Assembly (NCBI RefSeq): GCF_016820655.1
Contig: NZ_WSFT01000039.1
Span: 1-64,000, forward strand
Direction: 5' to 3'
DNA: 64,000 nt
Source of the DNA: Anaeromonas frigoriresistens
GTDB lineage: Bacteria > Bacillota > Clostridia > Tissierellales > SIT17
The position numbers were made by a program, and so were the translations under genes. Below the pieces are notes generated by a model, which saw only the letters and a program-made list of their open reading frames with translations, had not been told where the DNA came from and made no database searches. Within the stretch, counting starts at the first letter, position 1; each line of letters opens with the position of its first letter. Of this stretch, positions 18,227-47,100 are shown in pieces.

Positions 18227-18258
18227 TTCATAATCTCTTCATAAATTTTTTCTATAAT
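18227..18258 (+). promoter_or_regulatory. direct-repeat promoter 1 (TTCATAATCTC-TTCATAAAT, -10 TATAAT)
   Basis: TTCATAATCTC (18227-18237) is followed immediately by TTCATAAAT. The TATAAT -10 box (18253-18258) begins 15 bp after the start of the second half-site. The same 11-bp period and 15-bp spacing occur at 24032 and 31056. The layout is that of OmpR/PhoB-type activators overlapping the -35 position. Confidence 0.65.
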
Positions 18259-18298
18259 TAAATTACAAAATAAATAAAATTAATAGGAGGAATTGATT

Positions 18299-18664
18299 AT
18301 GAAGAAATTAGTAGGAGTTTTACTTGTATCAGTACTGATTCTTTCAGTAGGAGCAATAGCCTTTGCTGGAAGTGATGGGAACTTACCTGATTGGTTTAAA
18401 GGTATGTTGGATTGGAGAAAAGATAGAATAGAAAATGCAGTAGAAGATGGAACAATAACACAAGAGGAAGCTAACGAATATCTTGAACATTTAGAAGATA
18501 TGGAAACATATCATACAGAGAATGGTTTTCCTGAAGAAAACTATGGTCCAGGAATGGGTGCTGGTAAAGGGTTTGGAAGATCCCAAGGAAGAGGACCTGG
18601 AAGAGGTTTCGGCGGAGGTTGCGGATATTGGCAATCAGACGTACAACAATCACCAGTACAATAA
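18299..18664 (+). CDS. secreted YckD/DUF2680-like small protein, Gly-rich tail
   Basis: The ATG at 18299 follows AGGAGG and gives 121 aa; the TTG six bases upstream is less well placed. A signal peptide covers about residues 1-22 (VLLVSVLILSVGAIAFAGS). The core WFKGMLDWRKDRIENAVEDG followed by TITQEEANEYLEHL is the pattern of YckD-like proteins. The last 35 residues are Gly/Met/Arg-rich (GMGAGKGFGRSQGRGPGRGF). Its promoter shares the direct repeats found before two SHOCT loci, so it is probably a target of the two-component system at 24518. A role in envelope stress or metal handling is inferred only. Confidence 0.8.
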   Translation: MKKLVGVLLVSVLILSVGAIAFAGSDGNLPDWFKGMLDWRKDRIENAVEDGTITQEEANEYLEHLEDMETYHTENGFPEENYGPGMGAGKGFGRSQGRGPGRGFGGGCGYWQSDVQQSPVQ

Positions 18665-18677
18665 TTAATATAAAATA

Positions 18678-18701
18678 AGGCGGCGAATATATTCGCCGCC
18701 T
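18678..18701. terminator. GC-rich hairpin terminator (convergent genes)
   Basis: AGGCGGCGAAT pairs perfectly with ATTCGCCGCCT, followed by ATTTATTAT. It lies between the YckD-like gene and the 3' end of apbE. Confidence 0.85.
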
Positions 18702-19761
18702 ATTTATTATCTGATAATGTAAAATCATTATTTGTAAGTTCAATTTTGTCTATTAACTCTGAAGACAGATAAACTTGCTTTTCATTAGTTATAAAGATAG
18801 CGTCTACACCATCAGTATTTTCTACTAGATTCATGCCTCTCTCTAATCCTAATGCGAATATTCCTGTAGAAAGACCATCTGCATCAAATGATTCGTCAGC
18901 AACTATTGTTACACTTTGAAGACTATTTTCTATAGGATACCCTGTAAAGGGATCTAATATATGATGATAAAGCTTTCCATCTTCTTCAAAGTTTCTCTCA
19001 TAAACTCCAGAAGATACAACTGTCTTATCCTTAACACTAACTATGGCTACATGTTTACCTCTAGGTTCATAAGGGTTTTGTACACCTATTTTCCAGTTAG
19101 ATCCATCTGGTTTACCTCCTAAAGCTAAGACGTTCCCACCTAAGTTTACTATAGCATGATTTATATTATTTTCTTTTAATATCTTAGCTACCTCATCAGC
19201 AGCATAACCTTTAGCTATCCCGCCTAAATCTAGAATCATATCTTCCTTATCTAGATAAATACTCTTATTTTCATTATCTAATACTACATTTTGATAATCT
19301 ACAAGGGGAAGATTATTTTCAATTTCCTCTTTAGTTGGAACTCTAGCATTTTCGGTGCCTATTTGCCAAAGTTCTACCAAAGGGCCAATGGTTATATCAA
19401 AATGACCTTCAGTTTTATCAGAATAAAACTTACCTCTTTCTATAACGTTATAAGTATCTTGAGAAACCTTAACAGAATCTTTTCCTGCATTATAATTAAT
19501 TTTATTTATCTCGCTGTCTTCTATATTCAAACTCATTTTATTTTCTATTTCTTCAATCCTATTAAATACTTTTTCAAATATTCCTTCAGGAGCCTCATCA
19601 TAAATAGATATATTTATAATTGTTCCTAAATAAAATCCATTTTCAGATACTGGCTCTGATGACTTAGGAGCAATATTTCCATTTCCATCTTCTGAACAAC
19701 CAGTAATCAATATTGAAAACAATATAAGTAAAAGAAAAGCATATTTTTTATAATTTATCAT
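18700..19761 (-). CDS. apbE: FAD:protein FMN transferase lipoprotein (ApbE / FmnB-like)
   Basis: A 353-aa exported lipoprotein with signal and lipobox LITGC (Cys22). ApbE hallmarks include GTIINISIYDE, the active-site region FDITIGPLVELWQIG (about 121-135), LDLGGIAKGYAADEVAK, VNLGGNVLALGG, and HHILDPFTGYPIEN with the Mg2+-binding DADGLSTGIFALG near residue 295. The enzyme transfers FMN from FAD to Ser/Thr in D-x-x-S/T-G-x-S/T motifs outside the membrane. Such motifs occur twice in the PplA-like lipoprotein at 29369. It is divergent from the ndh2-eetAB-dmkB genes, so it is the likely FmnB of an EET system. Confidence 0.94.
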   Translation of the reverse strand: MINYKKYAFLLLILFSILITGCSEDGNGNIAPKSSEPVSENGFYLGTIINISIYDEAPEGIFEKVFNRIEEIENKMSLNIEDSEINKINYNAGKDSVKVSQDTYNVIERGKFYSDKTEGHFDITIGPLVELWQIGTENARVPTKEEIENNLPLVDYQNVVLDNENKSIYLDKEDMILDLGGIAKGYAADEVAKILKENNINHAIVNLGGNVLALGGKPDGSNWKIGVQNPYEPRGKHVAIVSVKDKTVVSSGVYERNFEEDGKLYHHILDPFTGYPIENSLQSVTIVADESFDADGLSTGIFALGLERGMNLVENTDGVDAIFITNEKQVYLSSELIDKIELTNNDFTLSDNK

Positions 19762-20017
19762 TCATCTATCCTCCATTTAATATTAATTCTCGTGATAATT
19801 ATAACATATATTTGAATATAATGTTTTTTATATAAACTAAAAATAAATATAAGAAATATATGACTAATACATCAGAGTTTTAAGTATCGTTTACCATTAT
19901 GTGGAATGACCTTGTAAAATGATAGAAAAACTATGGATTAATAAAAAAAGTATGTTATAATATTATACGAATAGTGTAAATATATAAGTTACATTATTAA
20001 CAAAGCTTAGTCAAAAA

Positions 20018-20059
20018 TATGACACGTATCACATTTATTTTTTTATTTACTGGTATAAT
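20018..20059 (+). promoter_or_regulatory. Crp-type site and extended -10 of ndh2
   Basis: TATGACACGTATCACA (20018-20033) reads on the other strand as TGTGA-N6-TCATA, one mismatch from the Crp consensus, and shares 12 of 16 positions with the operator core at 1998. An extended -10 TGGTATAAT ends at 20059 and no -35 is seen. The site centre is about 40.5 bp before the expected start point. The long leader to the ATG at 20138 holds TCCGCTAAGGGTGGA, a small imperfect hairpin. Confidence 0.6.
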
Positions 20060-20137
20060 TATAGTTAATATAGTTATGTTTTTGACAAAACAAGTCCGCT
20101 AAGGGTGGACAAATAGTATAGAATAAGGGGGCACATT

Positions 20138-21967
20138 ATGAGTAAAAAAAGGATAGTAATTCTAGGTGCTGGATATGGTGGTGTACACTCAGCAAAGCTA
20201 CTTCATAAAAAATTCAAGAAAAATGATGAAGTAGAAGTTACTTTAATTGATAAAAACCCATACCACACGCTTCTTACTGATTTACATGAGGTAGCAGGTA
20301 GAAGAATAGAGGAACATGGAGTAAAGGTGAATCTAGAAAAGATATTTGGCAAGAAAAAAGTTGATGTTGTTACAGACAAAATTGACAAAATAGATTTTGA
20401 TGGTCAAAAACTTGTTTCTGAAAATGCTGAATATGGATATGATTATCTTATACTAGGTTCTGGAAGTGAGCCAGCATATTTTGGAGTAGAAGGTGCTGAA
20501 GAAAATAGTTTTACAATATGGTCATATGATGATGCAGTTAAAATTAAACAGCACATACATCATATGTTCGAGCAGGCAAGTACAGAAAGTAATGAAAATA
20601 AAAGAAGACAAATGCTTACTTTTGTAGTAGCTGGAGCAGGGTTTACTGGTGTAGAAACTATCGGTGAAATTGCTGAATGGCAGAAGAGACTTTGTCGAGA
20701 GTATAACATTAATCCAAAAGAAGTATCATTAAAAATTGTAGAAGGCCTACCAAAGATCCTTCCTATATTGAATGATAAGCTTATAGCTAAATCAGAAAGA
20801 AGACTTAATAAACTAGGAGTAGAAATTCTTACTCAATCTTTAATAACTAAAGTTACACCTCATTCTGTAACTTTAAAGAATGGAGAAAAGATAAAAACGA
20901 ATACATTAATATGGACTGCTGGAGTACAAGGTAGTAGCTTTGCAGCCAATATTGGTCTTACACTAGGTAAAAGAGGACGTATTCAAACTAACGAGTATAT
21001 GCAATCAGTAGATTATAGTAATGTTTATGTTATAGGAGATAATTCATATTTTGAAGAAGAAAATGAAGGTCCTATACCTCAAATAGTTGAGACAGCTTTA
21101 CAGACTGCAGAAACTGCAGTAGATAATATAGAAGCTGATATGGAAAATAAATCCTATGAGGCTTTTAAATCAAATTATCATGGATTTATGGTATCAATAG
21201 GTGGAAGATATGCAGTTGCTCATCTAGGAAATACATCAATGTCAGGATTTATTGCAATGATGATGAAGCATATAGTAAATATTCACTATCTATTTGGAGT
21301 AGGTGGATTTAATTTAATCTGGTCATACATCATGCATCAATTCTTTACTATAAAAGATAACCGTTCTATATTAGGTGGACACTTCTCCTTTAGAAGTCCT
21401 AATTTTTGGTTAGTTCCATTAAGAATTTTTGTTGGATATAAATGGTTAGACGAGGGATTAAACAAGATAGGAAAGGTAATAGAAGATCCTTCTAATATAT
21501 TCTTGATACCAGCTCCACCAACAGCAGCTACTTCTGGAGCAACTCAAGCAGCAGAAGAAGGAGCAGAGGCAGCATCACAATGGGGTGAAGCATTACCAGT
21601 TCCTGAGTTTATTCAAAATATTATGGATTGGTTTATGGAAGCATTCTTCTATACAGCAGATGGAGAATTCACTGTATTAGCCACTATATTCCAAACAGGA
21701 ATGGTTATAGCTGAAGTAGTAGTAGGAGGATTATTAATAGTAGGTTTATTTACAGCTCTTGCAGCGATAGTTTCAGTAGTAATGGGTATTATGATATGGA
21801 CTTCTGGAATGGCACCTACAGAAATGTTATGGTTCTTAGCAGCAGGTATAGCTTTAATAGGTGGAGCGGGTAGAACATTTGGTTTAGATTATTATGTGAT
21901 GCCAGTTCTAAAAAAATGGTGGTCAAAGACACCTTTTGCAAGAAAGACTTATCTATATATAGATTAG
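20138..21967 (+). CDS. ndh2: type II NADH:quinone oxidoreductase with C-terminal membrane domain (Ndh2 of EET)
   Basis: A 609-aa fusion. Residues 1-400 form an NDH-2 flavoprotein: FAD-binding ILGAGYGGVHSA, NADH-binding VVAGAGFTGVETIGE (about 165-180), IWTAGVQG, and the second FAD contact VYVIGDNSYF with QTAETAVDNI. Residues about 420-600 form a DoxX-like membrane part with three to four helices, interrupted by an Ala/Glu-rich loop (about 455-485). Listeria Ndh2 of the extracellular electron transfer locus has the same two-part layout. The enzyme oxidises NADH and reduces a membrane quinone. It leads the eetA-eetB-dmkB gene group but is separated from eetA by a partial terminator. Confidence 0.92.
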   Translation: MSKKRIVILGAGYGGVHSAKLLHKKFKKNDEVEVTLIDKNPYHTLLTDLHEVAGRRIEEHGVKVNLEKIFGKKKVDVVTDKIDKIDFDGQKLVSENAEYGYDYLILGSGSEPAYFGVEGAEENSFTIWSYDDAVKIKQHIHHMFEQASTESNENKRRQMLTFVVAGAGFTGVETIGEIAEWQKRLCREYNINPKEVSLKIVEGLPKILPILNDKLIAKSERRLNKLGVEILTQSLITKVTPHSVTLKNGEKIKTNTLIWTAGVQGSSFAANIGLTLGKRGRIQTNEYMQSVDYSNVYVIGDNSYFEEENEGPIPQIVETALQTAETAVDNIEADMENKSYEAFKSNYHGFMVSIGGRYAVAHLGNTSMSGFIAMMMKHIVNIHYLFGVGGFNLIWSYIMHQFFTIKDNRSILGGHFSFRSPNFWLVPLRIFVGYKWLDEGLNKIGKVIEDPSNIFLIPAPPTAATSGATQAAEEGAEAASQWGEALPVPEFIQNIMDWFMEAFFYTADGEFTVLATIFQTGMVIAEVVVGGLLIVGLFTALAAIVSVVMGIMIWTSGMAPTEMLWFLAAGIALIGGAGRTFGLDYYVMPVLKKWWSKTPFARKTYLYID

Positions 21968-21975
21968 TTATATAT

Positions 21976-22013
21976 GTCCTTTCGGAGAACAAACTTCGAA
22001 AGGACTTTATTTT
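21976..22013 (+). terminator. hairpin terminator/attenuator between ndh2 and eetA
   Basis: GTCCTTTCGGAG pairs with CTTCGAAAGGAC (one G-T pair) across 6 nt, followed by TTTATTTTA. The interrupted T run suggests partial read-through into eetA. Confidence 0.75.
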
Positions 22014-22099
22014 AGCATATATCTAAAAATCTTATTTGCTGAAAAGTATAAAACTTGATAAACTATAGTAGCATACTAAGGTTGGAAAGAGGAATATAT

Positions 22100-22477
22100 A
22101 TGAAAAAATTAGATGGTATAATTATTATTGTAGTTCTTTTAGTATCATTATTAGGATTTCTATATCTGCAATATGGTAGAGATAATGATTTCAATAATAA
22201 AAAGGCTGAAATATATATAGATGGTGAATTATATAATAGTTATGAGTTAACTGAGGATATAGACGAAGAAGTAGTCATAAATACTGAATTAGGTACAAAT
22301 ATCATTAAACTATATAATAATGGTGTTAATATTATAGATGCAGATTGTCCTGATAAATACTGTGTAAGTGATGGGTTTATTAATGAGCCCGGAGAGATGC
22401 TTGTATGTCTTCCTAATAAAGTTGTGGTAGAAATAAAGGGAGAGAAAGAAAGTACTATAGATGATACATCATACTAA
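22100..22477 (+). CDS. eetA: NusG domain II protein, EetA-like
   Basis: A 125-aa membrane-anchored protein; ATG 22100 follows AAAGAGG. It has one N-terminal hydrophobic helix (about 5-22) and an extracytoplasmic NusG-domain-II-like beta domain with AEIYIDGELYNSYEL and the characteristic DCPDKYCV (Cys96, Cys101), then GEMLVCLPNKVVVEI. EetA in Listeria has this form and works with EetB in moving electrons from quinone to extracellular flavoproteins. The next gene, an EetB homologue, starts 11 bp downstream with GGGGGAG. It is normal length for the family. Confidence 0.9.
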   Translation: MKKLDGIIIIVVLLVSLLGFLYLQYGRDNDFNNKKAEIYIDGELYNSYELTEDIDEEVVINTELGTNIIKLYNNGVNIIDADCPDKYCVSDGFINEPGEMLVCLPNKVVVEIKGEKESTIDDTSY

Positions 22478-22488
22478 GGGGGAGAACT

Positions 22489-23004
22489 ATGTCTAAAACA
22501 CAAAAACTAGTTATAATTTCATTATTAGTGGCACAAGCATTGGTTCTTCATTTAGTAGAGAGAATGATACCTTTTAATTTTGGTATACCAGGAGCTAAAC
22601 TAGGACTTGCCAATATTATTACATTAGTATCTCTATATTTATTTGGATTTAAAGAAACTCTCACTGTGGTAGTATTAAGGACGTTGATGGCTAATTTATT
22701 AGGAGGAAATGTTTCTGGATTTTTATTTAGTATTTCAGGAGGATTATTAAGCTTCTTCATTATGTATTTAATAAAAAGAATAGCAAGAGAAAAAGTAAGT
22801 GTTATAGGATTAAGTATTGTAGGAGCAGTATTTCATAATATTGGACAAATATTAATGGCTGCTTTTGTGATTCACAATCTAAATATAGTTATATATTTAC
22901 CCGCTTTATTAATATCGGCTGTTGCTACAGGCTTATTTGTAGGTATAACAGTAAATTATATTTTAAAGTTTTTAAAAATGACTGGATTATTTAAAATTAG
23001 TTAG
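22489..23004 (+). CDS. eetB: Gx transporter family membrane protein, EetB-like
   Basis: A 171-aa membrane protein with about five helices. The segment FGIPGAKLGLANIITLVSLYLFG and the following LRTLMANLLGGNVSGFLFS are the signature of the Gx / heptaprenyl-diphosphate-synthase component I-like family, in the ECF S-component fold. In Listeria the same gene (eetB) is needed for flavin-based EET together with eetA. It lies between eetA and the prenyl synthase gene, with 32 bp to the latter. It was historically annotated as a prenyl-synthase subunit, which the context does not exclude. Confidence 0.9.
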   Translation: MSKTQKLVIISLLVAQALVLHLVERMIPFNFGIPGAKLGLANIITLVSLYLFGFKETLTVVVLRTLMANLLGGNVSGFLFSISGGLLSFFIMYLIKRIAREKVSVIGLSIVGAVFHNIGQILMAAFVIHNLNIVIYLPALLISAVATGLFVGITVNYILKFLKMTGLFKIS

Positions 23005-23036
23005 AAGATATAAAAGAAAACATCAAGGGTGATAAA

Positions 23037-24002
23037 ATGAATTCATTTTGGGATAAATATCCTCAATTGCAAAGAGAATTAGAGGATGTAAAAGAAATAA
23101 TGAAGAAAAATGTCAAAACCAATGAGAAATATATTGAAAAGCCTTTATTAGATTTAATAGATTCTGGTGGAAAAATGTTAAGGCCAGCATTTTTATTACT
23201 CTCTTCTAAATTTGGTAAATATGAAAAAGATAAACATCAGAATTTAGCTGCTATTATAGAGATGCTTCATATGGCTACATTAATTCATGATGATATTATA
23301 GATGAGTCTAAACTAAGAAGAGGACAAACAACGATTCAATCACGATATGGAAAAGATTATGCAGTATATATGGGAGATTATCTATTCTCGAAATGTTTTA
23401 TGATGTTATCTGAGGACTATTCTATGGAAAATATGAGGAAAATTTCTAAAGCTATAACTCATATATGCATGGGTGAAATAAGACAATATTATTTTAGGTT
23501 CAGAAGTGATGTATCTTTAAAAAGATACTTAAAGATAGTATCTGGCAAAACAGCATCTCTTTTTGCCATGAGTTTTCATATTGGTGCAAAGGAATCTGAA
23601 TGTGATGAGAAGATGTCTAAAGCATTAGGAAAGATTGGATACAATATAGGTATGGCCTTTCAAATAATAGATGATATATTAGATTATACAGCAGAAGAAG
23701 AAACCCTAGGAAAAAGTATAAAAAATGATCTAAAACAAGGCTTCTTTACATTACCATTAATATTTGCTTTATTAGAAGATAATAAAAGGCTTGAAATATT
23801 AATAGAAAAAGAAGATGTAACAGATGATGATGTTATAGAAATCATAAATATTATCAGGTCATCAAATGGTTTAACTAGAGCTAAAAAATTAGCTGTAAGA
23901 TATACTGAGAGAGCCTTTTCTATAATAGATTCACTACCAAATTGTGAAAGCAAAGAAATTATATATGAAATTACTGAAAAATTATTAAAAAGAGAATATT
24001 AA
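23037..24002 (+). CDS. dmkB: polyprenyl (probably heptaprenyl) diphosphate synthase, DmkB-like
   Basis: A 321-aa trans-prenyltransferase with both aspartate-rich motifs: first LIHDDIIDES (about 82-91) with RRGQTT after it, second FQIIDDILDYT (about 212-222). The upstream GGKMLRPAFLLL is the IPP-binding GGKxxRP. It elongates FPP or GPP with isopentenyl diphosphate to make the isoprenoid tail of demethylmenaquinone. In the Listeria EET locus dmkB occupies an equivalent role. Chain length cannot be set from sequence alone. A strong terminator follows the stop codon. Confidence 0.92.
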   Translation: MNSFWDKYPQLQRELEDVKEIMKKNVKTNEKYIEKPLLDLIDSGGKMLRPAFLLLSSKFGKYEKDKHQNLAAIIEMLHMATLIHDDIIDESKLRRGQTTIQSRYGKDYAVYMGDYLFSKCFMMLSEDYSMENMRKISKAITHICMGEIRQYYFRFRSDVSLKRYLKIVSGKTASLFAMSFHIGAKESECDEKMSKALGKIGYNIGMAFQIIDDILDYTAEEETLGKSIKNDLKQGFFTLPLIFALLEDNKRLEILIEKEDVTDDDVIEIINIIRSSNGLTRAKKLAVRYTERAFSIIDSLPNCESKEIIYEITEKLLKREY

Positions 24003-24006
24003 TATC

Positions 24007-24034
24007 AAAGCTGAGGATAATTCCTCAGCTTTTC
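24007..24034 (+). terminator. intrinsic terminator after dmkB
   Basis: AAAGCTGAGG pairs with CCTCAGCTTT across a 6-nt loop. Its T tract runs into the first direct repeat of the next promoter. Confidence 0.9.
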
Positions 24035-24063
24035 ATATTTTCTTCATATTTGTAAGGTATAAT
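24032..24063 (+). promoter_or_regulatory. direct-repeat promoter 2 (TTCATATTTTC-TTCATATTT, -10 TATAAT)
   Basis: TTCATATTTTC (24032-24042) is followed directly by TTCATATTT. TATAAT (24058-24063) starts 15 bp after the second half-site start, as at 18227 and 31056. Confidence 0.68.
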
Positions 24064-24171
24064 TTTTCATAAGAGAATTAAATGGAAAGTAAGGTCGAAA
24101 AAGATAAAAAAATAGATGAAATGACTAAAAATTGAATATAGGGGTATAGATAGTATAAGGAGATGATAGAT

Positions 24172-24417
24172 ATGAATATTATCAAATGGATTTTTATTGA
24201 ATTATTACTTCCTATTACTATCTTAAAAGCTGGATTGATAACTATTTCGTTTGCAGCTCTGATTTATACTGTACAAAAAGTTATGCTCACTAAAGTATCC
24301 TCCGCAAATCAAAGTAACGATATTATATATGCAGTCACAGAATTAAGAAGAAGATATACAGCAGGTAAGATATCAGAAGAAGAGTATCAAAAAATATTAA
24401 ATGGTGTTACGAAATAG
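24172..24417 (+). CDS. small SHOCT-domain membrane protein
   Basis: An 81-aa protein (ATG 24172, AAGGAG nine bases upstream). One hydrophobic segment spans about residues 8-32, and a C-terminal SHOCT motif (DIIYAVTELRRRYTAGKISE, then EEYQKIL) covers about 50-78. SHOCT domains are short oligomerisation helices commonly attached to membrane or envelope-stress proteins. It lies upstream of the two-component system and carries the direct-repeat promoter shared with the genes at 18299 and 31117, so autoregulated expression by that system is likely. The molecular role is unknown. Confidence 0.75.
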   Translation: MNIIKWIFIELLLPITILKAGLITISFAALIYTVQKVMLTKVSSANQSNDIIYAVTELRRRYTAGKISEEEYQKILNGVTK

Positions 24418-24440
24418 AATCCAGCCTAGGCTGGATTTTA
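24418..24440 (+). terminator. intrinsic terminator
   Basis: AATCCAGCC pairs perfectly with GGCTGGATT, followed by TTATT. It separates the SHOCT gene from the response regulator. Confidence 0.82.
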
Positions 24441-24517
24441 TTAATGTCTCATACCTATCAATTGAAAAGCATCTCATGAAGCTTTCCTTTGTGATATATT
24501 ATAAATGAGGTGGTAAT

Positions 24518-25201
24518 ATGGCAAAAAATTTCTTAGTAGTAGATGACCAAAAAGAAATAGTAGATGTAATAAAAGCATATTTACAAAAAGAAGGATATAA
24601 TATTTACCCGGCATACAACGGAAAGGATGCTATTGATATATTGAATCAAGAAAACATTGACTTTGCTATACTAGACTTGATGTTGCCGGATATATCTGGT
24701 GAAGAAATATGTAAGAAAATAAGATTAAGGTCTCAAATACCAGTTATCATGTTAACTGCAAAATCTATGGAAGAGGATAGAATATATGGATTAGATATTG
24801 GAGCAGATGATTATATAGTCAAACCCTTTAGTCCAAAGGAACTACTAGCAAGAATAAGAGCTATTCTACGAAGAAGTAGTGAAGAATTTATAAAGGCTGA
24901 CATTATTCAAATTGATAAAGGGAATCTGTCTATAGATTTAAATAGTAGAGAAGTGACAAAATCAGGTAAGATAATAGATTTAACTCCTACTGAATTTGAT
25001 TTATTAAAATTATTTTCGCAAAACCCATCTAAGGTGTTTAGTAGGGAGAATTTAATAATAAAAATATTAGGTTATGACTATGAAGGATATGATAGAACAA
25101 TTGATGCCCATGTTAAAAATTTAAGGCATAAGATTGAAGATAAAGAAAATAAGTACATTAAAACAGTTTATGGGGTTGGATATAAATTCAGGGAGGATTA
25201 A
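24518..25201 (+). CDS. OmpR-family response regulator
   Basis: A 227-aa regulator. The receiver domain (1-120) has acidic residues in VVDDQKE, phosphorylation site Asp53 in FAILDLMLPD, Thr in VIMLTAKS and Lys in DYIVKPFSPKE. The C-terminal OmpR/PhoB winged helix (about 130-227) includes LTPTEFDLLKLFSQNP, NLIIKILGYDYEGYDRTIDA and HVKNLRHKIE. The histidine kinase gene starts one base after its stop. OmpR-type proteins bind tandem half-sites about 10-11 bp apart; three such sites occur in this window, one just upstream. The regulon proposed in the findings follows from that. Confidence 0.95.
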   Translation: MAKNFLVVDDQKEIVDVIKAYLQKEGYNIYPAYNGKDAIDILNQENIDFAILDLMLPDISGEEICKKIRLRSQIPVIMLTAKSMEEDRIYGLDIGADDYIVKPFSPKELLARIRAILRRSSEEFIKADIIQIDKGNLSIDLNSREVTKSGKIIDLTPTEFDLLKLFSQNPSKVFSRENLIIKILGYDYEGYDRTIDAHVKNLRHKIEDKENKYIKTVYGVGYKFRED

Positions 25202-25202
25202 T

Positions 25203-26618
25203 ATGATTAATCATTTAAGGACTAGGATAACTATATTAATGATAATTGCAGCACTGATATCAGTTATTACAATTGGAGTTATATCAAATATTACTTTGTT
25301 TAGTAAGTTTGATGAGTATCTAAGTAAAGAAAAAGAAAACAGAATAGAAGAAGTTATAAATTTTATTGAAGAAAGTTATAAAGTAGATAAATGGACTGAA
25401 AAAACAAAAGATAATATAGAATTATCTCCAATGGTAGAAGGATTTGACTTATTAATCCGTGATAACAAAGGGGATATTATATTATCAAAGAAAATGAACA
25501 AATCCTTTATCAATGATCATATGATGGGCAAAGGTATGGGCATGGGTATGATGAGGGGCCGTAATTCTAATTTTGAAAATAGTACAGGAGATAATTATAA
25601 AGTAGATAATATATCTTTAGAAGCAAATGGTGAGAATATAGGTACACTACAGATAGGATATTATAATTCTCTAGTAGTGGGAAGTCAAGAAGTTGAATTC
25701 ACTAAGGGTATAAATCAATCAATACTTTATGCTGCAATTATATCCATAGTAGTAGCAATTATATTAGGTATATACTTTTCTAGATTTATTTCTAAACCTA
25801 TTATTGATGTAAAAGAAACTACTAATGAACTTAGTAAAGGTAATTTAGATACATCAGTTAAGACTAGAAGTAAGATAACTGAGATAAATCAACTAACCTC
25901 TTCAATTAATTATCTAAAAGAATCTTTAAATTCTGAGAATATATTAAGAAAACAGCTTACTTCAGATATTTCTCATGAGCTAAGAACACCCTTAGCTATT
26001 TTAAAAAGTCATATAGAGGCTATACAAGATGGAATATGGGAATTGAATGATGAAAGGTTATTAGTTTTTCAGAAAGAAGTAGATAGATTAATACTTTTAG
26101 TAGAGCAAATTAAGTTCTTAAATAATATAAAAGAGCATAATATATCTCTTAATTTAGAAAAACTTGATTTTGAAAAAATAGTGCAAGAAGTAAATGAAGG
26201 CTTTGAAATAGAGTATTTAAGAAAGAACATAACCTTAGTAAAGAATTTAGAACAAAATATATATGTATTAGGAGATGAATATAGGCTAAAACAAGTTATA
26301 ATAAATTTATTTTCTAATGGAATTAAGTTTACTAATAATAATGGAAGGATTGATATAGAAATATTTAAAGAAAACGATTATGGAGTTTTTCAAATATCTA
26401 ATACTGGAGAAGGAATTTCTAAAGAAGATTTACCCTATATATTTGAAAGACTTTATAGAACTGATAAATCTAGAAATAGAGATAAAGGTGGTTCTGGATT
26501 AGGCTTATCAATTGTAAAGGAATTAGTGAATGCACATAATGGTCAGGTTAAGGTTAATAGTGAAATAGGTAAAAAAACTGTATTCACTGTATATATTCCT
26601 CTATATACTACTAATTAG
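25203..26618 (+). CDS. sensor histidine kinase
   Basis: A 472-aa membrane kinase starting at ATG 25203 after GGGAGG, coupled to the response regulator. TM1 is about 9-32, the extracytoplasmic sensor about 33-170, TM2 about 173-193, and HAMP about 194-245. HisKA has His258 in SDISHELRTPLAIL. The HATPase has the N box INLFSNGIKFTNNNG, G1 NTGEGIS and G2 GGSGLGLSIVKEL. The sensor contains a striking Met/Gly/His-rich stretch at about 106-120 (HMMGKGMGMGMMRGR), similar in composition to the start of the SHOCT protein at 31117. Met-rich loops often bind soft metals, so metal or envelope sensing is a reasonable guess. Confidence 0.93.
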   Translation: MINHLRTRITILMIIAALISVITIGVISNITLFSKFDEYLSKEKENRIEEVINFIEESYKVDKWTEKTKDNIELSPMVEGFDLLIRDNKGDIILSKKMNKSFINDHMMGKGMGMGMMRGRNSNFENSTGDNYKVDNISLEANGENIGTLQIGYYNSLVVGSQEVEFTKGINQSILYAAIISIVVAIILGIYFSRFISKPIIDVKETTNELSKGNLDTSVKTRSKITEINQLTSSINYLKESLNSENILRKQLTSDISHELRTPLAILKSHIEAIQDGIWELNDERLLVFQKEVDRLILLVEQIKFLNNIKEHNISLNLEKLDFEKIVQEVNEGFEIEYLRKNITLVKNLEQNIYVLGDEYRLKQVIINLFSNGIKFTNNNGRIDIEIFKENDYGVFQISNTGEGISKEDLPYIFERLYRTDKSRNRDKGGSGLGLSIVKELVNAHNGQVKVNSEIGKKTVFTVYIPLYTTN

Positions 26619-26657
26619 TAATATATAGTTGACAATAAAACTAATTAGTAGTAATAT
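26609..26657 (+). promoter_or_regulatory. marR promoter with two palindromic operators
   Basis: TTGACA (26629-26634) and TAATAT (26652-26657) are 17 bp apart. One palindrome, TACTAATTAGTA (26609-26620), precedes the promoter and overlaps the kinase stop. A second (AACTAATTAGTA, 26639-26650) fills the spacer. Autorepression by the MarR product is the likely outcome. The expected start point is at or next to the ATG at 26664. Confidence 0.75.
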
Positions 26658-26663
26658 TATAAT

Positions 26664-27107
26664 ATGAATAATAAAACTTATGGAAAAGAAAATGACTTAA
26701 ATTTAAAAGTATTAATAAAATTAACAAGGGCAACTCAAAAAGTGCATAAACAAGAGTATAAAACCATAAAAAAAGGAGGACTTACTGTATCTCAATTTGG
26801 AGTACTAGAAGTTTTATACCATAAAGGAGATCTAAGAATTAGGGATATAATAGATAAAACATTGTCAACTGGTGGAAATATGACTGTAGTTATAGATAAT
26901 CTAGAAAAAGAGAATCTTATTAGAAGATATCCTGATCCTACTGATAGAAGAGCTACCCTTATTAGTATAACTGAAAAAGGAAAAGAATTAATGGATAAAA
27001 TATTTCCGAGCCATGTAGAAAATATTAATGATATATTTAGTGTTTTTTCTGAAGAAGAAAAAAATCAATTAATAAAATTATTAAGAAAGTTAAATAGAGT
27101 AGATTAA
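26664..27107 (+). CDS. MarR-family transcriptional regulator
   Basis: A 147-aa winged-helix protein with the MarR core: GLTVSQFGVLEVLYHKGDL, the recognition helix region STGGNMTVVIDNLEKENLI (about 74-92), and the wing DPTDRRATLISITEKG. It resembles the MhqR/YodB-neighbour type regulators controlling quinone-stress genes. The palindromes TACTAATTAGTA and AACTAAT-G-ATTAGTT flank it on both sides, before itself and before the pirin gene. No Shine-Dalgarno is visible and the -10 box ends 6 bp before the ATG, so its mRNA is probably leaderless. It lies between the two-component system and the pirin-wrbA genes. Confidence 0.92.
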   Translation: MNNKTYGKENDLNLKVLIKLTRATQKVHKQEYKTIKKGGLTVSQFGVLEVLYHKGDLRIRDIIDKTLSTGGNMTVVIDNLEKENLIRRYPDPTDRRATLISITEKGKELMDKIFPSHVENINDIFSVFSEEEKNQLIKLLRKLNRVD

Positions 27108-27120
27108 TCTACTCTATTTT
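27093..27120 (+). terminator. intrinsic terminator overlapping the marR stop
   Basis: AATAGAGTAGATT pairs perfectly with AATCTACTCTATT and is followed by TT. The stop codon lies at the centre of the palindrome. Confidence 0.75.
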
Positions 27121-27132
27121 AAGACATCATAA

Positions 27133-27181
27133 TACTAATTAGTAATAAACTATATAGTAAATTAATAACTAATGATTAGTT
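27133..27181 (+). promoter_or_regulatory. MarR operators before the pirin gene
   Basis: A perfect TACTAATTAGTA palindrome (27133-27144) is identical to the one at 26609. A second (27167-27181) has arms AACTAAT and ATTAGTT around a G. Both precede the pirin gene start at 27224. Confidence 0.7.
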
Positions 27182-27223
27182 CGAAATGTGCCGGGTATTA
27201 TATAAAATGGAAGGGATGATATC

Positions 27224-27919
27224 ATGATAAATAAAATAGAGAACGCTACAATGGGTAGAGGTGAACATGACTGGTTAAGAAGTATACATCATTTTTCTTT
27301 TGCAGAGTACTATGATCCTAATAGAATGGGGCTTGGAGTGTTAAGAGTATTAAATGATGATTTGGTAGATTCTGATACGGGATTTGATCTTCATCCTCAT
27401 AAAGATATGGAGATAATTTCCTATGTTGTTGAGGGAGAACTTACCCACGGAGATAGCATGCAAAATGATAGCACTATAAGAAGAGGAGATATTCAGTATA
27501 TGAGTGCTGGAAAGGGGGTATATCATAGTGAGCATAATAAAGGAGATACAACTTTGAGGTTCCTTCAAATATGGATTAAACCAGATAAATCTAGTTATGA
27601 ACCAAATTATGGAGATTTTAGTTTTCAGTGGAATGAAAGAAAAAATAAATGGCTCCATATGGTATCATCAAAACAAGGAACTGCACCAGTGAAAATAAAT
27701 CAAGATGCAGATATATATGTAACAAGTCTAGATAAGGATAATCAAATTAAAATAGAAATAGATAATAAACATCAAGCTTATTTGGTGCAAATAGAAGGAA
27801 AGTCAGATATCAATGGGGTAGGTTTAAATACTAGAGATGCTATGGAGATATTTAATGAGAAACTAAACATTAAAGCTATAGATAAATCTCACATACTATT
27901 GATAAAAATAAAAAAATAG
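27224..27919 (+). CDS. pirin family protein (quercetinase-like, YhhW type)
   Basis: A 231-aa bicupin. The N-terminal pirin domain has the metal-binding histidines in FDLHPHKDMEIISYVVEGEL (about 53-72), then THGDSMQ and GKGVYHSEHN with the fourth ligand region. The second half is a degenerate cupin. Members include quercetin 2,3-dioxygenases and redox-sensing cofactors. The MarR operators upstream and wrbA downstream indicate a role in the response to quinones or other electrophiles. It is 44 bp upstream of wrbA and probably cotranscribed. Confidence 0.92.
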   Translation: MINKIENATMGRGEHDWLRSIHHFSFAEYYDPNRMGLGVLRVLNDDLVDSDTGFDLHPHKDMEIISYVVEGELTHGDSMQNDSTIRRGDIQYMSAGKGVYHSEHNKGDTTLRFLQIWIKPDKSSYEPNYGDFSFQWNERKNKWLHMVSSKQGTAPVKINQDADIYVTSLDKDNQIKIEIDNKHQAYLVQIEGKSDINGVGLNTRDAMEIFNEKLNIKAIDKSHILLIKIKK

Positions 27920-27963
27920 ATTTATAGGAATGTAGACAAGATATTGAAAGGAGAGTATTGATT

Positions 27964-28578
27964 ATGAAAATGTTAATTGTATATCACTCAATGTATGGAC
28001 ATACACAAAAATTAGCTGAATCTGTTGCTAAAGGAGCTAAAGAAATAGAAGGTACCGAGGTTAAAATAACAAGGGTAAAAGAAACACTCCCCGACGAAGT
28101 ACTAGAAAAAATGGGTTGCCTAGAAATAATAAAAAATATGGAAAAGGAAGTTCCTGAAGTAACCTTAGATGATTTAAAAGATGCTGATGCTATAGTATTT
28201 GGTACCCCTACAAGATTTGGAAATATGTCAGCTCAAATGAAGACTTTCTTAGATAGTACAGGTGGTTTATGGTCAGAAGGAGCACTAATAGGAAAAGTTG
28301 GAGGAGTATTCACATCTACAGCTACTCAACATGGAGGGCAAGAATCAACTATATTAAGCTTTAATAATGTTTTATTACATCAAGGTATGATAATAAGTGG
28401 ATTGCCATATTCTTATGAAGGATTATCTAGTGTTGAGAAAATTTCGGGAGGATCTCCTTATGGAGCTAGTACAGTATCAGGGGGAGATGGGAAACTACAA
28501 CCTACTGATATTGATTTAGAAGGAGCGAAATATCAAGGTAAGCATATAGCTAAAATAGCTAAAAAATTGGTTGAATAA
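27964..28578 (+). CDS. wrbA: NAD(P)H:quinone oxidoreductase (WrbA family flavodoxin-like)
   Basis: A 204-aa flavodoxin-fold enzyme; ATG 27964 follows AAAGGAGAG. The FMN phosphate loop is YHSMYGHTQKLA (about 6-17), the isoalloxazine contact is GTPTRFGNMSAQMKTFLDST (about 81-100), and the family-specific STATQHGGQESTI is near residue 120. Two-electron quinone reduction protects against semiquinone redox cycling. The insertion DEVLEKMGCLEIIKN after strand 2 is typical of the family. It ends a probable pirin-wrbA operon under MarR control. Confidence 0.94.
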   Translation: MKMLIVYHSMYGHTQKLAESVAKGAKEIEGTEVKITRVKETLPDEVLEKMGCLEIIKNMEKEVPEVTLDDLKDADAIVFGTPTRFGNMSAQMKTFLDSTGGLWSEGALIGKVGGVFTSTATQHGGQESTILSFNNVLLHQGMIISGLPYSYEGLSSVEKISGGSPYGASTVSGGDGKLQPTDIDLEGAKYQGKHIAKIAKKLVE

Positions 28579-28580
28579 AT

Positions 28581-28612
28581 AAAAGGTAAGGCTTAAGCCT
28601 TACCTTTTTAAA
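28581..28612. terminator. intrinsic terminator (bidirectional)
   Basis: AAAAGGTAAGGC pairs perfectly with GCCTTACCTTTT across TTAA. It separates wrbA from the convergent msrA, whose last codons overlap it. Confidence 0.92.
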
Positions 28613-29084
28613 TTGATAAATCTATATGACAGTATCCATTGGGATTCTTTTTTAGATATTTTTGATGATATTCTTCTGCATCGTAAAATGTTTTTAAAGG
28701 TTCTACTTCAGTAACAATATTATCTTGATATTTTTGTTGTTCTTTATCTTTAGAGTTTAATATAGTATCCTTATCTTGCTTATCAATGAAGTAAATTCCT
28801 GTCCTATACTGAGTACCTCTATCTGGTCCTTGTCTATTTTCTATAGTTGGGTTAATTATATTCCAAAACTTATCTAATAACTGTGATAATTGGATAATAT
28901 TTTCATCATATTCTATATAGCAAGCCTCTGCATGTCCTGTTAATCCTGTACATACCTGTTCATAAGATGGATCTTCTATTTTACCATTAGCATAGCCTAC
29001 TTTAATATCTAAAACTCCATCTATCCTACTCATATATTCTTCTACACCCCAGAAACAGCCACCAGCTAATACAATCTTCTTCAT
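28608..29084 (-). CDS. msrA: peptide-methionine (S)-S-oxide reductase
   Basis: A 158-aa MsrA with the catalytic GGCFWGVEE (Cys10) at the N terminus and the substrate-pocket motif [14 protein letters not shown] (about 93-106). Further signatures are [17 protein letters not shown] and [12 protein letters not shown]. It reduces methionine-S-sulfoxide in proteins using thioredoxin-type donors. No MsrB domain is fused and none is adjacent. It is the only minus-strand gene in this oxidative-stress group, with its own promoter region in the 284-bp gap shared with pplA. Confidence 0.95.
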
Positions 29085-29296
29085 TATACCATCTCCTAAG
29101 CTATCTATTTATTATAAGATTATCATACCAGTATAAAGAATTATTTTCAATATATTATTAATATCCCTAATATAACAAATTATAATAAAAAAATGTCATA
29201 TATGTATATAGTCATTTAATATATATAAATAGTAATAAAAAAATATAACAATCTAACATAGGATTTTTAGGACTTGTTACATATTTCAAGATACTA
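29085..29296. other. AT-rich divergent promoter region
   Basis: No gene is seen. The stretch is very AT-rich, with repeated ATATAT runs and ATGTCATATATG at 29194-29205. It should hold the msrA promoter on the minus strand. No clear operator could be singled out. Confidence 0.5.
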
Positions 29297-29325
29297 TTGA
29301 CAAAAAAATATCGTTAAATTATAAT
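29297..29325 (+). promoter_or_regulatory. perfect-consensus sigma-A promoter of pplA
   Basis: TTGACA (29297-29302), 17 bp, TATAAT (29320-29325). Both hexamers match consensus exactly, predicting strong constitutive expression of the lipoprotein. Confidence 0.85.
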
Positions 29326-29368
29326 CATAAGAGATACACTAATTAAAATTGAATGAGGGGGAATTTTA

Positions 29369-30304
29369 ATGTCAATGAAGAAATTTTTATCATTAGGACT
29401 TGCTCTATTTGTATCAGCTGGCTTATTAGTTGGTTGTGGGGGAGATGAGGAGCCTACATCCACAGATACAGATACGGAACAAGAGGAAACGACTGATGAG
29501 GAAAAAACTTCTACAGAGGGTAATTATGAAGATGGTATTTACTTTGCCCAAGAAGATGGATTCTCAGAAAATAGTGGATGGAAATATGTTGTAACACTAA
29601 AAGTAGAAGATGGAAAGATTACTGACGCTGAGTGGAATGGAGCTCACAAAGATGGGGGTACAGATAAGATTACTAGATCTGAATCTGGAGAATATGGAAT
29701 GGTGGAATTTGGTGATGCTCAAGCAGAATGGCATGAGCAATCTGTAAAAGCTGAAGAATACTTATTAGAAAAACAAGATCCAACAGCTATAGAATATTCT
29801 AGTGATGAAGGACACACAGATGCTATATCAGGAGTATCAATTCACGTTAAAGAATTCTTTGATTTAGCTGAAAAAGCTTTAGAAAAAGGACCTGTAGGTG
29901 AGGGATCATATAAAGATGGTAACTATAGAGCTGAAGAAGAAGCGTTTGATGAGAAGTCAGGATGGAAGTATACTGCTGATATTACAGTTATAAATGGATA
30001 TATAGTTGCTGCCGACTGGGATGGATTACACAAAGATGCACCTAAAGACGATAAAGGTAATGAGAAGACAAAAGATGTTGTATCTGAAGCAGGAGAATAT
30101 GGAATGGTAGAAAATGGTGAAGCTCAATCAGAATGGCATGTTCAAGCTAATGTAGCTGAAGCTTTTCTTTTAGAAGAGCAAGATCCAACTGCTATAGAGT
30201 ACACTGATGATGAAGGTCATACAGACGCATTAACAGGAGTATCAATCCACGTAAAAGAATTCTTTGATTTAGCTGAAAAAGCATTAGATGGAGCTAAAAA
30301 ATAA
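29369..30304 (+). CDS. pplA: flavinylated surface lipoprotein with two FMN-binding domains (PplA-like)
   Basis: A 311-aa lipoprotein with lipobox LLVGC (Cys23) and a Thr/Glu-rich linker (about 26-52). Two tandem copies of the same domain follow (about 53-172 and 178-307). Each has DG-x-Y, SGWKY, the acidic substrate face, EYGMVE, and a C-terminal DA[I/L][S/T]GVSIHVKEFFDLAEKAL. The expected FMN attachment residues are Ser157 in DAISGVS and Ser292 in DALTGVS, where Val replaces the usual Ala. This is the layout of Listeria PplA, the surface electron carrier of flavin-based EET. GAGGGGG lies before the ATG, and the promoter is consensus. The modifying ApbE is at 18700. Confidence 0.9.
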   Translation: MSMKKFLSLGLALFVSAGLLVGCGGDEEPTSTDTDTEQEETTDEEKTSTEGNYEDGIYFAQEDGFSENSGWKYVVTLKVEDGKITDAEWNGAHKDGGTDKITRSESGEYGMVEFGDAQAEWHEQSVKAEEYLLEKQDPTAIEYSSDEGHTDAISGVSIHVKEFFDLAEKALEKGPVGEGSYKDGNYRAEEEAFDEKSGWKYTADITVINGYIVAADWDGLHKDAPKDDKGNEKTKDVVSEAGEYGMVENGEAQSEWHVQANVAEAFLLEEQDPTAIEYTDDEGHTDALTGVSIHVKEFFDLAEKALDGAKK

Positions 30305-30318
30305 ATATAAATAGACTT

Positions 30319-30355
30319 TAAACCCTTAGAGATTAATCTTTAAGGGTTTATTTTA
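30319..30355 (+). terminator. intrinsic terminator after pplA
   Basis: TAAACCCTTA pairs with TAAGGGTTTA across a 12-nt loop, followed by TTTTATT. Confidence 0.82.
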
Positions 30356-30423
30356 TTGTTGTTGCATATATTAATTATTAGAGTACCGGGTATATATACT
30401 TATAAATACTAAGGAGGAAAACT

Positions 30424-31053
30424 ATGAATTCTGAAACTGATAAAATCAGAAAAAGATATAATAGAGTTTCTAAGATATATGATATTATGGAAAAACCTAT
30501 GGAATCAATGCTAGGAGAAAAATGGAGAGGCAAACTTATCGAGGAAATAGAAGGAAAGAAAATATTAGAAGTTGGAATTGGGACTGGAAAGAACATACCA
30601 TATTATCCTAAAGATATTGATGTTATAGGAATTGATTTTAGTGAGAATATGGTTCAAAGGGCTAATGAAAGGGCTAATTCTTATCCTAATGTGGATATTA
30701 TTCAAATGGATGCACAGAATATGACCTTTGAAGATAATATGTTTGACACGGTTATAACTAGTTGTGTATTTTGTTCTGTTCCAGATCCTATAAAAGGTTT
30801 AAAGGAAATTAGAAGAGTATGTAAACCTAATGGGAAAATTATTATGTTAGAGCATATGAGAAGTGAAGATAAAATAATAGGAAAAGCTATGGATATCATA
30901 AATCCCATACCATTATATATTTGGGGAGCTAATATTAATAGAAAAACCATGGAAAACTTACAAAGAGCAGGATATAGTGAAGGTGAAATTCAGATAGAAG
31001 ATATTTGGAGAGATATTGTAAAACTTATTAAAATAAGAAATAAAAAGAATTAA
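30424..31053 (+). CDS. class I SAM-dependent methyltransferase (UbiE/COQ5-like)
   Basis: A 209-aa enzyme. Motif I is ILEVGIGTGKNIPYYP (about 50-65), motif II IGIDFSENMVQRAN, the post-motif acid region IIQMDAQNMTFEDNMFDTVI, and EIRRVCKPNGKIIMLEHMRS with the GK turn of motif IV. The opening IRKRYNRVSKIYDIMEKPME is that of the UbiE/PmtA group. Given the quinone-using EET genes nearby, methylation of a demethylmenaquinone-type ring or of phospholipid headgroups is possible; the substrate is not proved. AAGGAGG precedes the ATG. Confidence 0.86.
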   Translation: MNSETDKIRKRYNRVSKIYDIMEKPMESMLGEKWRGKLIEEIEGKKILEVGIGTGKNIPYYPKDIDVIGIDFSENMVQRANERANSYPNVDIIQMDAQNMTFEDNMFDTVITSCVFCSVPDPIKGLKEIRRVCKPNGKIIMLEHMRSEDKIIGKAMDIINPIPLYIWGANINRKTMENLQRAGYSEGEIQIEDIWRDIVKLIKIRNKKN

Positions 31054-31055
31054 AA

Positions 31056-31087
31056 TTCATATTTTCTTCAAAGTTAAATATTATACT
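31056..31087 (+). promoter_or_regulatory. direct-repeat promoter 3 (TTCATATTTTC-TTCAAAGTT, -10 TATACT)
   Basis: TTCATATTTTC (31056-31066) is followed directly by TTCAAAGTT. TATACT (31082-31087) starts 15 bp after the second half-site start. This is the same architecture as at 18227 and 24032. Confidence 0.65.
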
Positions 31088-31116
31088 ATAAATATAGAAA
31101 TAAAGGAGGAATACTT

Positions 31117-31341
31117 ATGATGCATAGAGGATTTGGAATGATGGGAGGAGGAGGTTTCTTGGGTTTTATAATTATAGCATTAATTGTATATTTTGCTTTT
31201 AAATATATTAATAATAACGGGGAACATACATCTAATTTTAATAAAAGAAATGATGCATTAGATGTTTTAAATGAAAGATACGCAAAAGGTGAAATATCTG
31301 ACGAAGAGTATAATCGTAAGAAGGATATGCTAAGAGATTAA
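31117..31341 (+). CDS. small SHOCT-domain membrane protein
   Basis: A 74-aa protein after AAAGGAGG. The N terminus is Met/Gly-rich (MMHRGFGMMGGGGF), then one hydrophobic helix (about 15-34) and a C-terminal SHOCT motif (ALDVLNERYAKGEISDEEYN, about 47-66). The Met/Gly-rich start resembles the sensor loop of the kinase at 25203. It is followed 15 bp later by a paralogue. Its promoter carries the shared direct repeats. Confidence 0.8.
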   Translation: MMHRGFGMMGGGGFLGFIIIALIVYFAFKYINNNGEHTSNFNKRNDALDVLNERYAKGEISDEEYNRKKDMLRD

Positions 31342-31356: not shown

Positions 31357-31623
31357 ATGATGCATGGATTTATGGATGGGTTTGGAGGTCCATTTGGTTT
31401 TGGAAGTAACTTAGGAGTTTGGGTTATGGTATTTCAATTAGTTAGAACACTACTGATAATAGGAGCAGTTATAATAATAGCAAAACTATTTGTAAAAAAC
31501 GGTAATAAATCCAATGTTAATTCTAATTCTTTTAGAGCAATAGATATACTAAAAGAAAGATATGCTAAGGGAGAAATAGATGAGACTGAGTATCAAAGAA
31601 GATTGAATAATTTAAAATCGTAA
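31357..31623 (+). CDS. small SHOCT-domain membrane protein (paralogue)
   Basis: An 88-aa protein from ATG 31357 (AAAGGAG nine bases upstream). A GTG at 31351 is possible but closer to the ribosome-binding site. The order is a Gly/Phe-rich N terminus (MMHGFMDGFGGPFGFG), one hydrophobic helix (about 20-43) and a C-terminal SHOCT motif (AIDILKERYAKGEIDETEYQ). It is similar in order to the preceding gene and clearly a tandem paralogue in the same transcript. Confidence 0.8.
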   Translation: MMHGFMDGFGGPFGFGSNLGVWVMVFQLVRTLLIIGAVIIIAKLFVKNGNKSNVNSNSFRAIDILKERYAKGEIDETEYQRRLNNLKS

Positions 31624-46887: not shown

Positions 46888-47100
46888 ATGATAAATTTTT
46901 TTGAATCATCCCTATTAAATATAATAATTAATATATTATGGCCTATGATTTTTGTCTTTGTGTTGATTTTTTCTGTGAGAAATTTTTATAAGTATAGAGG
47001 AGATAAAGATAAGTTTGATAAATCATTAGATGAGAAGCTAGAAAAAGGAGAAATAACTCAAGAAGAATATCATAGAATAAAAAATAGAGATATATTATAA
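46888..47100 (+). CDS. small membrane protein with SHOCT-like tail
   Basis: A 70-aa protein after AGGAGG, with one hydrophobic segment (about 10-32) and a charged C-terminal DKSLDEKLEKGEITQEEYHR that matches the SHOCT pattern (G-E-I-x-x-E-E-Y). It is similar in size and order to the SHOCT proteins at 24172, 31117 and 31357, but its upstream region lacks the TTCATA direct repeats. Function unknown. Confidence 0.72.
   Translation: MINFFESSLLNIIINILWPMIFVFVLIFSVRNFYKYRGDKDKFDKSLDEKLEKGEITQEEYHRIKNRDIL

Follow-up and report, generated by a model that had tools for sequence, protein, structure and literature searches.

Three promoters in the window, i.e. the whole stretch of 64,000 nucleotides analysed here (positions 1 to 64,000 of contig NZ_WSFT01000039.1 of Anaeromonas frigoriresistens), carry two tandem half-sites with an 11-bp period at one fixed distance from the -10 box. 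They precede genes for a secreted DUF2680 protein, for a small SHOCT-like membrane protein next to an OmpR/PhoB-type response regulator and a sensor kinase, and for a pair of SHOCT membrane proteins. Judged from the DNA, the three promoters very probably share control by the regulator encoded at 24518 and would together form one two-component regulon. This shared regulon is supported because the sites are conserved, their spacing is fixed, they are tied to the family of the 24518 regulator, and the same gene classes recur behind them. The regulon is judged to be real, conserved and of a known type, and undescribed as far as the literature was searched; the case for a soft metal as its signal is good but unproven.

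The tandem sites and their conservation

The sites and -10 boxes of the three promoters are as follows.

18227-18243, plus strand: tandem site of the DUF2680 promoter, TTCATA-N5-TTCATA (half-sites 18227-18232 and 18238-18243)
18253-18258, plus strand: -10 box TATAAT (inferred transcription start near 18265)
24032-24048, plus strand: tandem site of the SHOCT/regulator locus (half-sites 24032-24037 and 24043-24048)
24058-24063, plus strand: -10 box TATAAT (inferred start near 24070)
31056-31072, plus strand: tandem site of the SHOCT-pair promoter, TTCATA-N5-TTCAAA (half-sites 31056-31061 and 31067-31072)
31082-31087, plus strand: -10 box TATACT (inferred start near 31094)

A preliminary description of this DNA had claimed an 11-bp period in all three sites and a -10 box beginning exactly 15 bp after the start of the second half-site; both claims agreed with the letters and the coordinates in three of three sites. 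The repeats themselves were as described for the first two sites but not for the third, whose second half is TTCAAA and not TTCATA. In the genome of the strain (3,227,221 bases in 53 contigs), the pattern TTCATA-N5-TTCA-N11-TATA(A/C)T had three exact matches, all of them in the window and within 13 kb, while the reversed pattern had none. The extended consensus, with up to three mismatches allowed, returned the same three places only. The scan for random matches at the same spacing, called for by the preliminary description, showed the spacing to be rare in this genome and limited to the three window sites. When the pattern was relaxed to TTCAT-N6-TTCA-N11-TATA(A/C)T with one mismatch, 15 places were found versus 16 for the control, so single-mismatch matches are mostly noise. 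A fourth candidate in the same genome (C32:753-784, locus L015), with one mismatch, precedes a gene for a secreted Cys/His/Met protein of 61 residues; this protein had no match in the other 59 genomes searched, and the candidate therefore remains unproven. Since the search pattern was derived from the window sites themselves, the independent test was conservation in other genomes.

Exact sites were present in three other genomes of the genus, with 1, 6 and 3 sites and none for the control, giving 13 in four genomes including the own. These sites precede the orthologous DUF2680 gene in G001, G002 and G003 and the SHOCT pair in G002 and G003. Further sites of G002 precede the regulator, a PspA gene, a gene for a secreted-looking protein without a Pfam family and a TusA/rhodanese gene, and one site of G003 has no gene of the expected classes behind it. 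Of 150 genomes of the order, the own genus among them, 53 carry exact sites, 90 in total, compared with six matches of the reversed control. The conservation in other species on which the preliminary description had made its proposal depend was thus found in the genus, in the order and beyond. Across the phylum, the extended consensus with two mismatches matched in 6 of 199 genomes (own included) and the control in none. The six places outside the own genome precede the following genes.

L297: response regulator
L298: M23 peptidase with G5 and LysM
L299: SHOCT protein below the cut-off
L300: CcmH gene
L301: SHOCT protein above the cut-off
L302: protein matching the LTXXQ, Metal_resist, ZraP and CpxP models, all below cut-off

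The sites follow the regulator family. Homologues of the regulator at E 1e-60 or better were found in 97 of the 150 genomes of the order, and of the 77 sites outside the genus, 36, spread over 28 genomes, are no more than 3.5 kb from such a homologue. About 0.22 would be expected, an average-genome estimate rather than a permutation, for which 89 regulator places were entered, fewer than all listed homologues. The spacing was then counted in 27 regulator loci of other families that had been selected by protein alone and not by motif; not all of them are independent, as some share a genus. In these loci, TTCATA-Nk-TTCA occurred 18 times at k=5 and at most 4 times at any other k (0-19), and the distance from TTCA-N7-TTCA to TATA(A/C)T was 11 in 16 of 18 cases (allowed range 3-29). 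A promoter-like site was present in 17 of the 27 loci, one of which (L185) looks like chance; locus L130, which was also scanned for the site, had no match. The same peaks, weaker, were seen in 26 DUF2680-chosen loci of other families (7 at k=5 and 6 at k=0; distance 11 in 6 of 7).

The anatomy of the promoter was read from the 75 order-level sites that are intergenic, the other 15 of the 90 being intragenic when open reading frames of at least 100 codons are considered. Several free positions are conserved in the intergenic sites: C right before the first TTCATA (65%), T and C between the halves (87% and 83%), A after the second TTCA (88%), and A seven bases past the -10 box (85%), where the transcription start is expected. 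The resulting consensus is CTTCATAwTTT-CTTCAnAwTT-N6-TATAAT, i.e. two 11-bp units. Taking the conserved A as the start places the halves at -38 to -33 and at -27 to -22. The half-site arrangement expected for OmpR/PhoB-type regulators, tandem and head to tail one helical turn apart, is found here as the 11-bp peak in the 27 protein-chosen loci. The anatomy resembles that of promoters activated by PhoB, where the distance between box and core promoter is reported to be strict (PMC10294691).

Genes behind the sites

The genes and elements that follow the three window sites are listed below.

18299-18664, plus strand: secreted DUF2680 (YckD-like) protein with a Gly-rich C-terminus (PF10925, 30.1 bits, cut-off 25)
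24172-24417, plus strand: small membrane protein with a weak SHOCT domain (PF09851, 20.4 bits, below the cut-off of 27)
24413-24442, plus strand: terminator-like hairpin between the SHOCT gene and the regulator gene (a 65-base stretch containing it folds at -22.1 kcal/mol, computed without a shuffle control)
24518-25201, plus strand: OmpR/PhoB-type response regulator (Response_reg and Trans_reg_C), proposed regulator of all three promoters
25203-26618, plus strand: sensor histidine kinase (HAMP, HisKA, HATPase_c) with an extracytoplasmic Met/His/Gly-rich loop
31117-31341, plus strand: SHOCT membrane protein with a Met/Gly-rich N-terminus (PF09851, 39.9 bits, cut-off 27)
31357-31623, plus strand: second SHOCT membrane protein of the pair (PF09851, 33.7 bits, cut-off 27)

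The regulator has the architecture of the OmpR/PhoB family, with 106.9 bits for PF00072 and 92.6 bits for PF00486. The YckD-like gene announced by the preliminary description behind the first site passes the DUF2680 model. Its SHOCT genes hold for the pair at 31117 and 31357 but not for the protein at 24172, whose match stays under the cut-off. In 19 aligned DUF2680 relatives linked to sites, a His is common to all, mostly together with ENGF and Cys and sometimes with Cys-His; several site-linked DUF2680-like relatives score below the PF10925 cut-off of 25. The site at 24032 abuts the terminator-like hairpin of a polyprenyl-synthase gene (24007-24032). A hairpin resembling that at 24413-24442 stands in G002 right after the -10 box and directly before the regulator. 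Because hairpins precede the regulator in both the window and G002, the level of the regulator may depend on read-through, which is a guess.

Gene classes behind the 90 order-level sites were assigned by script; part of the training set of its DUF2680 and SHOCT models came from these very proteins, and any OmpR-type protein at E 1e-20 was counted as a regulator. On these terms, 46 of the 90 sites precede DUF2680-like, SHOCT or regulator/kinase genes: 22 DUF2680-like, 11 SHOCT, 3 regulator plus SHOCT, 6 regulator and 4 kinase. Another 29 precede other genes and 15 are intragenic, one of the latter also having a kinase. Among the 29 others were genes for PspA (L124, L211 and L212), DUF302 (L227), Met-rich secreted proteins, CsoR-family repressors (L237 and L238) and LDCC metal-binding proteins (L232 and L234). 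In L211 and L212, from two genomes of one genus, a single site is followed by genes for PspA, a partner, a secreted Met-rich protein, two SHOCT proteins, the regulator and the kinase; PspA was first named there by eye or motif and was borne out by a Pfam scan. In L214, from another genus, two SHOCT genes, the regulator and the kinase are followed by a second site and a DUF2680 gene. The proposal of the preliminary description, that the regulator at 24518 activates all three loci, is upheld as to shared control, by the 36 of 77 sites adjoining homologues and the 46 of 90 before expected genes; that the regulator activates rather than represses is only what we infer.

Secreted Met/His-rich proteins sharing MIRIMRxN-like stretches are encoded behind sites in L190, L215 and L217 and near one in L195. 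Those of L190, L195 and L215 matched no Pfam family, and that of L217 gave only a chance match below cut-off. In L232, L234 and L238, from f19 genomes, sites of the TTCATA(A/A) type with an A-rich spacer stand before genes for LDCC mini metal-binding proteins or CsoR-family genes; the f19 sites perhaps belong to a sister system.

The three window sites flank a gene cluster (18700-31053) that is mostly syntenic in G002. It contains genes for ApbE, an Ndh2-like protein, NusG_II, Hpre_diP_synt_I, polyprenyl synthase, an FMN-binding lipoprotein (60 bits with the PplA model, cut-off 325) and a UbiE-type methyltransferase. The cluster is reminiscent of flavin-based extracellular electron transfer, with NusG_II and Hpre_diP_synt_I proteins that we take to be EetA-like and EetB-like, respectively. 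A methionine sulfoxide reductase (MsrA) gene lies between the sites together with the flavin/electron-transfer genes; MsrA and the polyprenyl synthase were first named by eye or motif and then borne out by model scans. Two more weak SHOCT matches below cut-off, at 46888-47100 and 60125-60712, had no tandem site in the pattern searches of the own genome.

The kinase loop and related systems

The preliminary description had called the sensor loop of the kinase Met/Gly-rich, and this was taken up as a Met/His cluster. Most of 18 aligned kinases have a stretch like H..MM..M in the outer loop, often with a second MM. At least six Met/His residues in some 30-residue stretch of the loop were counted in 32 of 44 kinases (43 from loci of relatives and that of the window), with a threshold chosen after the data had been seen; 5 of the 12 kinases without a cluster came from the background list, and the kinase of L233 is not among the 44. 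The window kinase at 25203 has eight such residues in a 30-residue stretch of its loop. By comparison, 1 of 29 kinases reached the threshold in a contrast set of loci with regulator homologues of 42-52% identity, mostly from Chloroflexi and Bipolaricaulota, in which 29 kinases were paired among the 80 loci kept. A SHOCT gene was not seen by motif near any of the 25 contrast-set loci examined.

Copper-related genes accompany several sites in relatives. L217, with two sites, has an ATPase over the copper model TIGR01511 (CopA), an HMA protein and a DUF326 gene whose Csp1 match stays under the cut-off. An ATPase over the copper model lies about 1.9 kb before the SHOCT site of L124 and directly before that of L128, and L258 has a copper-model ATPase and a CsoR-family gene. 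In L237, the site precedes CsoR-family, copper-model ATPase and HMA genes, and in L238 a CsoR-family gene. L195 has, near its site and beyond the kinase, an HMA-DsbD gene with a cupredoxin match below cut-off. The CsoR and HMA genes of L238 and L237 and the ATPases of L128 and L258 were named by eye or motif and borne out by Pfam and NCBIfam scans. On balance, a soft metal is favoured as the signal, with Cu(I) and Ag(I) as examples.

The pho box has an 11-bp period over the -35 region, and the spacing of the window sites equals that of phoA. Like the window sites, the E. coli PhoB sites are tandem direct repeats with a reportedly strict spacing to the core promoter and have nearly the same letters, e.g. 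TTTCATAAATCTGTCATA before phoB (PMC10294691). Unlike those of the PhoB regulon, the genes behind the window-type sites encode SHOCT, DUF2680, PspA and metal-related proteins, and the regulator reaches 224.3 bits with the NCBIfam PhoB model TIGR02154, below its cut-off of 296.2. No phosphate-uptake gene was recognised by eye downstream of the 87 sites outside the window and the 3 inside, only some of which were Pfam-scanned. The OmpR-type system YclJK of Bacillus subtilis is the nearest lead: its regulator YclJ reportedly has a motif of TTCATA repeats (attributed to Ogura 2010 and Hartig 2004). The YclJ targets yngABC and ykcBC, described as genes of the cell-envelope glycosylation type (PMC7961091), differ in type from the genes behind the window-type sites.

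CusRS and CopRS share with the window system an OmpR-type regulator, an outer kinase loop with residues that may act as metal ligands and, in some relatives, copper genes nearby; the genes behind the window-type sites are, however, mostly of other families. The NCBIfam heavy-metal models TIGR01387 and TIGR01386 were not passed by the regulator and the kinase (171.6 of 279.2 and 192.9 of 292.55 bits, respectively). ZraSR/ZraP, CpxAR/CpxP and BaeSR/Spy are two-component systems of envelope metal stress that drive a small secreted protein. A small secreted protein is also present here, and the distant L302 gene matches the ZraP and CpxP models below cut-off, but no homology of DUF2680 to ZraP or CpxP is shown here. 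The cut-offs of BaeSR and CpxAR were not reached (BaeR 212.5 of 380, CpxR 187.5 of 341, BaeS (NF007837) 216 of 603, CpxA 144.9 of 486) in a comparison that covered the 25 best NCBIfam families, the ZraSR models not being among them. The OmpR-type regulator RR_1586 of Clostridioides difficile likewise binds direct repeats of an 11-nucleotide motif; its consensus, DRTTAAGNWWW, and its putative targets, which include sporulation and germination genes, are different (PMC6222199). A description of a regulon with DUF2680, SHOCT or TTCATA sites was not found in the literature searched, a scope outside which most subscription papers lie. By analogy, its mode of action at the promoter would be that of PhoB, and its purpose perhaps that of CusRS or ZraSR.

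Competing explanations and proposed mechanism

Several observations weigh against one regulon with a metal signal. Ten of the 27 regulator loci have no site in the stretch examined (in two of the ten, a site lies beyond it on the upstream side), and among the 26 loci of other families chosen by DUF2680, 20 show none. Within the genus, no site precedes the regulator of G003 in the upstream stretch of about 330 bases examined, and G001 has a site yet no regulator match at E 1e-60, perhaps because of a contig end. Fifteen of the 90 sites are intragenic and 29 have no expected gene class by script; some of the latter genes do not fit, e.g. two sortases and an unrelated-looking repressor, and at least one regulator behind a site, that of L209, is a different OmpR-type protein and not a close homologue. 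As for the signal, f19 sites lie near regulators whose kinases (L233, L234 and L239) have no Met/His cluster, a motif scan of 14000-36000 found no copper gene near the window sites, and the copper genes of relatives are given as individual loci without an enrichment statistic.

That the sites are a chance resemblance of AT-rich promoters is extremely improbable. The window has 29% G+C, the three sites were themselves the source of the pattern and the 15 intragenic sites of the order would suit chance, but the 90 sites against 6 for the reversed pattern, the sharp spacing peaks in loci chosen by protein and the 36 of 77 sites beside a regulator homologue do not. At the level of conservation, the reversed controls and the spacing peaks led us to reject it. 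It is also very unlikely that the boxes belong to the phosphate (PhoB/PhoP) regulon or to another OmpR-type regulator of the genome. The likeness of the E. coli PhoB sites listed in PMC10294691 would fit this, as would the 224 bits of the regulator with the NCBIfam PhoB model; and half-sites may be common to related regulators, since a different OmpR-type regulator stands behind the L209 site. Yet the sites track the family of the 24518 regulator at its own loci, that regulator falls short of the PhoB cut-off of 296, and none of the downstream genes viewed by eye or Pfam-scanned could be recognised as one for phosphate uptake.

A third explanation keeps the regulon and replaces the metal by general envelope or redox stress, such as membrane damage or oxidised methionines. 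The SHOCT and PspA proteins would then serve to support the membrane, with the Met-rich loop acting as an oxidation sensor. It is a variant within the shared-regulon explanation, because the high confidence in that explanation covers shared control only and the metal signal, judged separately, is held less firmly. PspA genes behind the sites of L124, L211 and L212 (by Pfam), the M23 peptidase with LysM behind the L298 site and the methionine sulfoxide reductase and flavin/electron-transfer genes between the window sites agree with envelope or redox stress, and a link between SHOCT-like domains and the PSP systems of envelope stress is reported (PMC11237479). Several sites, however, have copper ATPase, HMA, CsoR-family, DUF326 or LDCC genes beside or behind them; these genes suit a soft metal better, as do the Met/His spacing of the kinase loop and the Met/His-rich secreted products, and we consider a general stress signal unlikely, if much less so than the other two explanations.

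For the preferred explanation, a shared regulon with a soft-metal signal, the following mechanism is proposed. The kinase at 25203 would sense a signal outside the membrane, most likely Cu(I) or Ag(I), through its Met/His-rich loop and would phosphorylate the regulator at 24518. The phosphorylated regulator would bind head to tail on the two 11-bp repeats, which take up about -38 to -22 and stand in for a good -35 box, and may recruit RNA polymerase to the near-consensus -10 box at a fixed distance, a geometry known for PhoB. In this way, the regulator would turn on its own locus, the secreted DUF2680 protein and the SHOCT membrane proteins. In some relatives, PspA, DUF302 and secreted Met-rich proteins would join them, as would genes of copper export in places. 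At the cell surface, the small proteins may capture metal or repair damage to the membrane. In this mechanism, we infer that the regulator binds directly and activates, that a metal is the signal and what the small proteins do.

A wider reading is put forward tentatively, and we think it somewhat less probable than its opposite. Anaerobic Firmicutes could use the system phylum-wide to respond to soft metals (Cu(I)/Ag(I)) at the envelope, with SHOCT membrane proteins and secreted DUF2680 proteins forming an undescribed apparatus for metal handling at the surface. DUF2680 would then have the role of ZraP, CpxP or Spy, and in the genus the system would be coupled to the flanked flavin-based electron-transfer cluster. 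Two families of unknown function, SHOCT and DUF2680, and an unstudied kinase would be tied to one putative binding site that can be read from sequence, and therefore signal and function would become directly testable across many uncultured or little-studied anaerobes. A promoter geometry like that of PhoB would be maintained across the families of an order while the controlled genes change.

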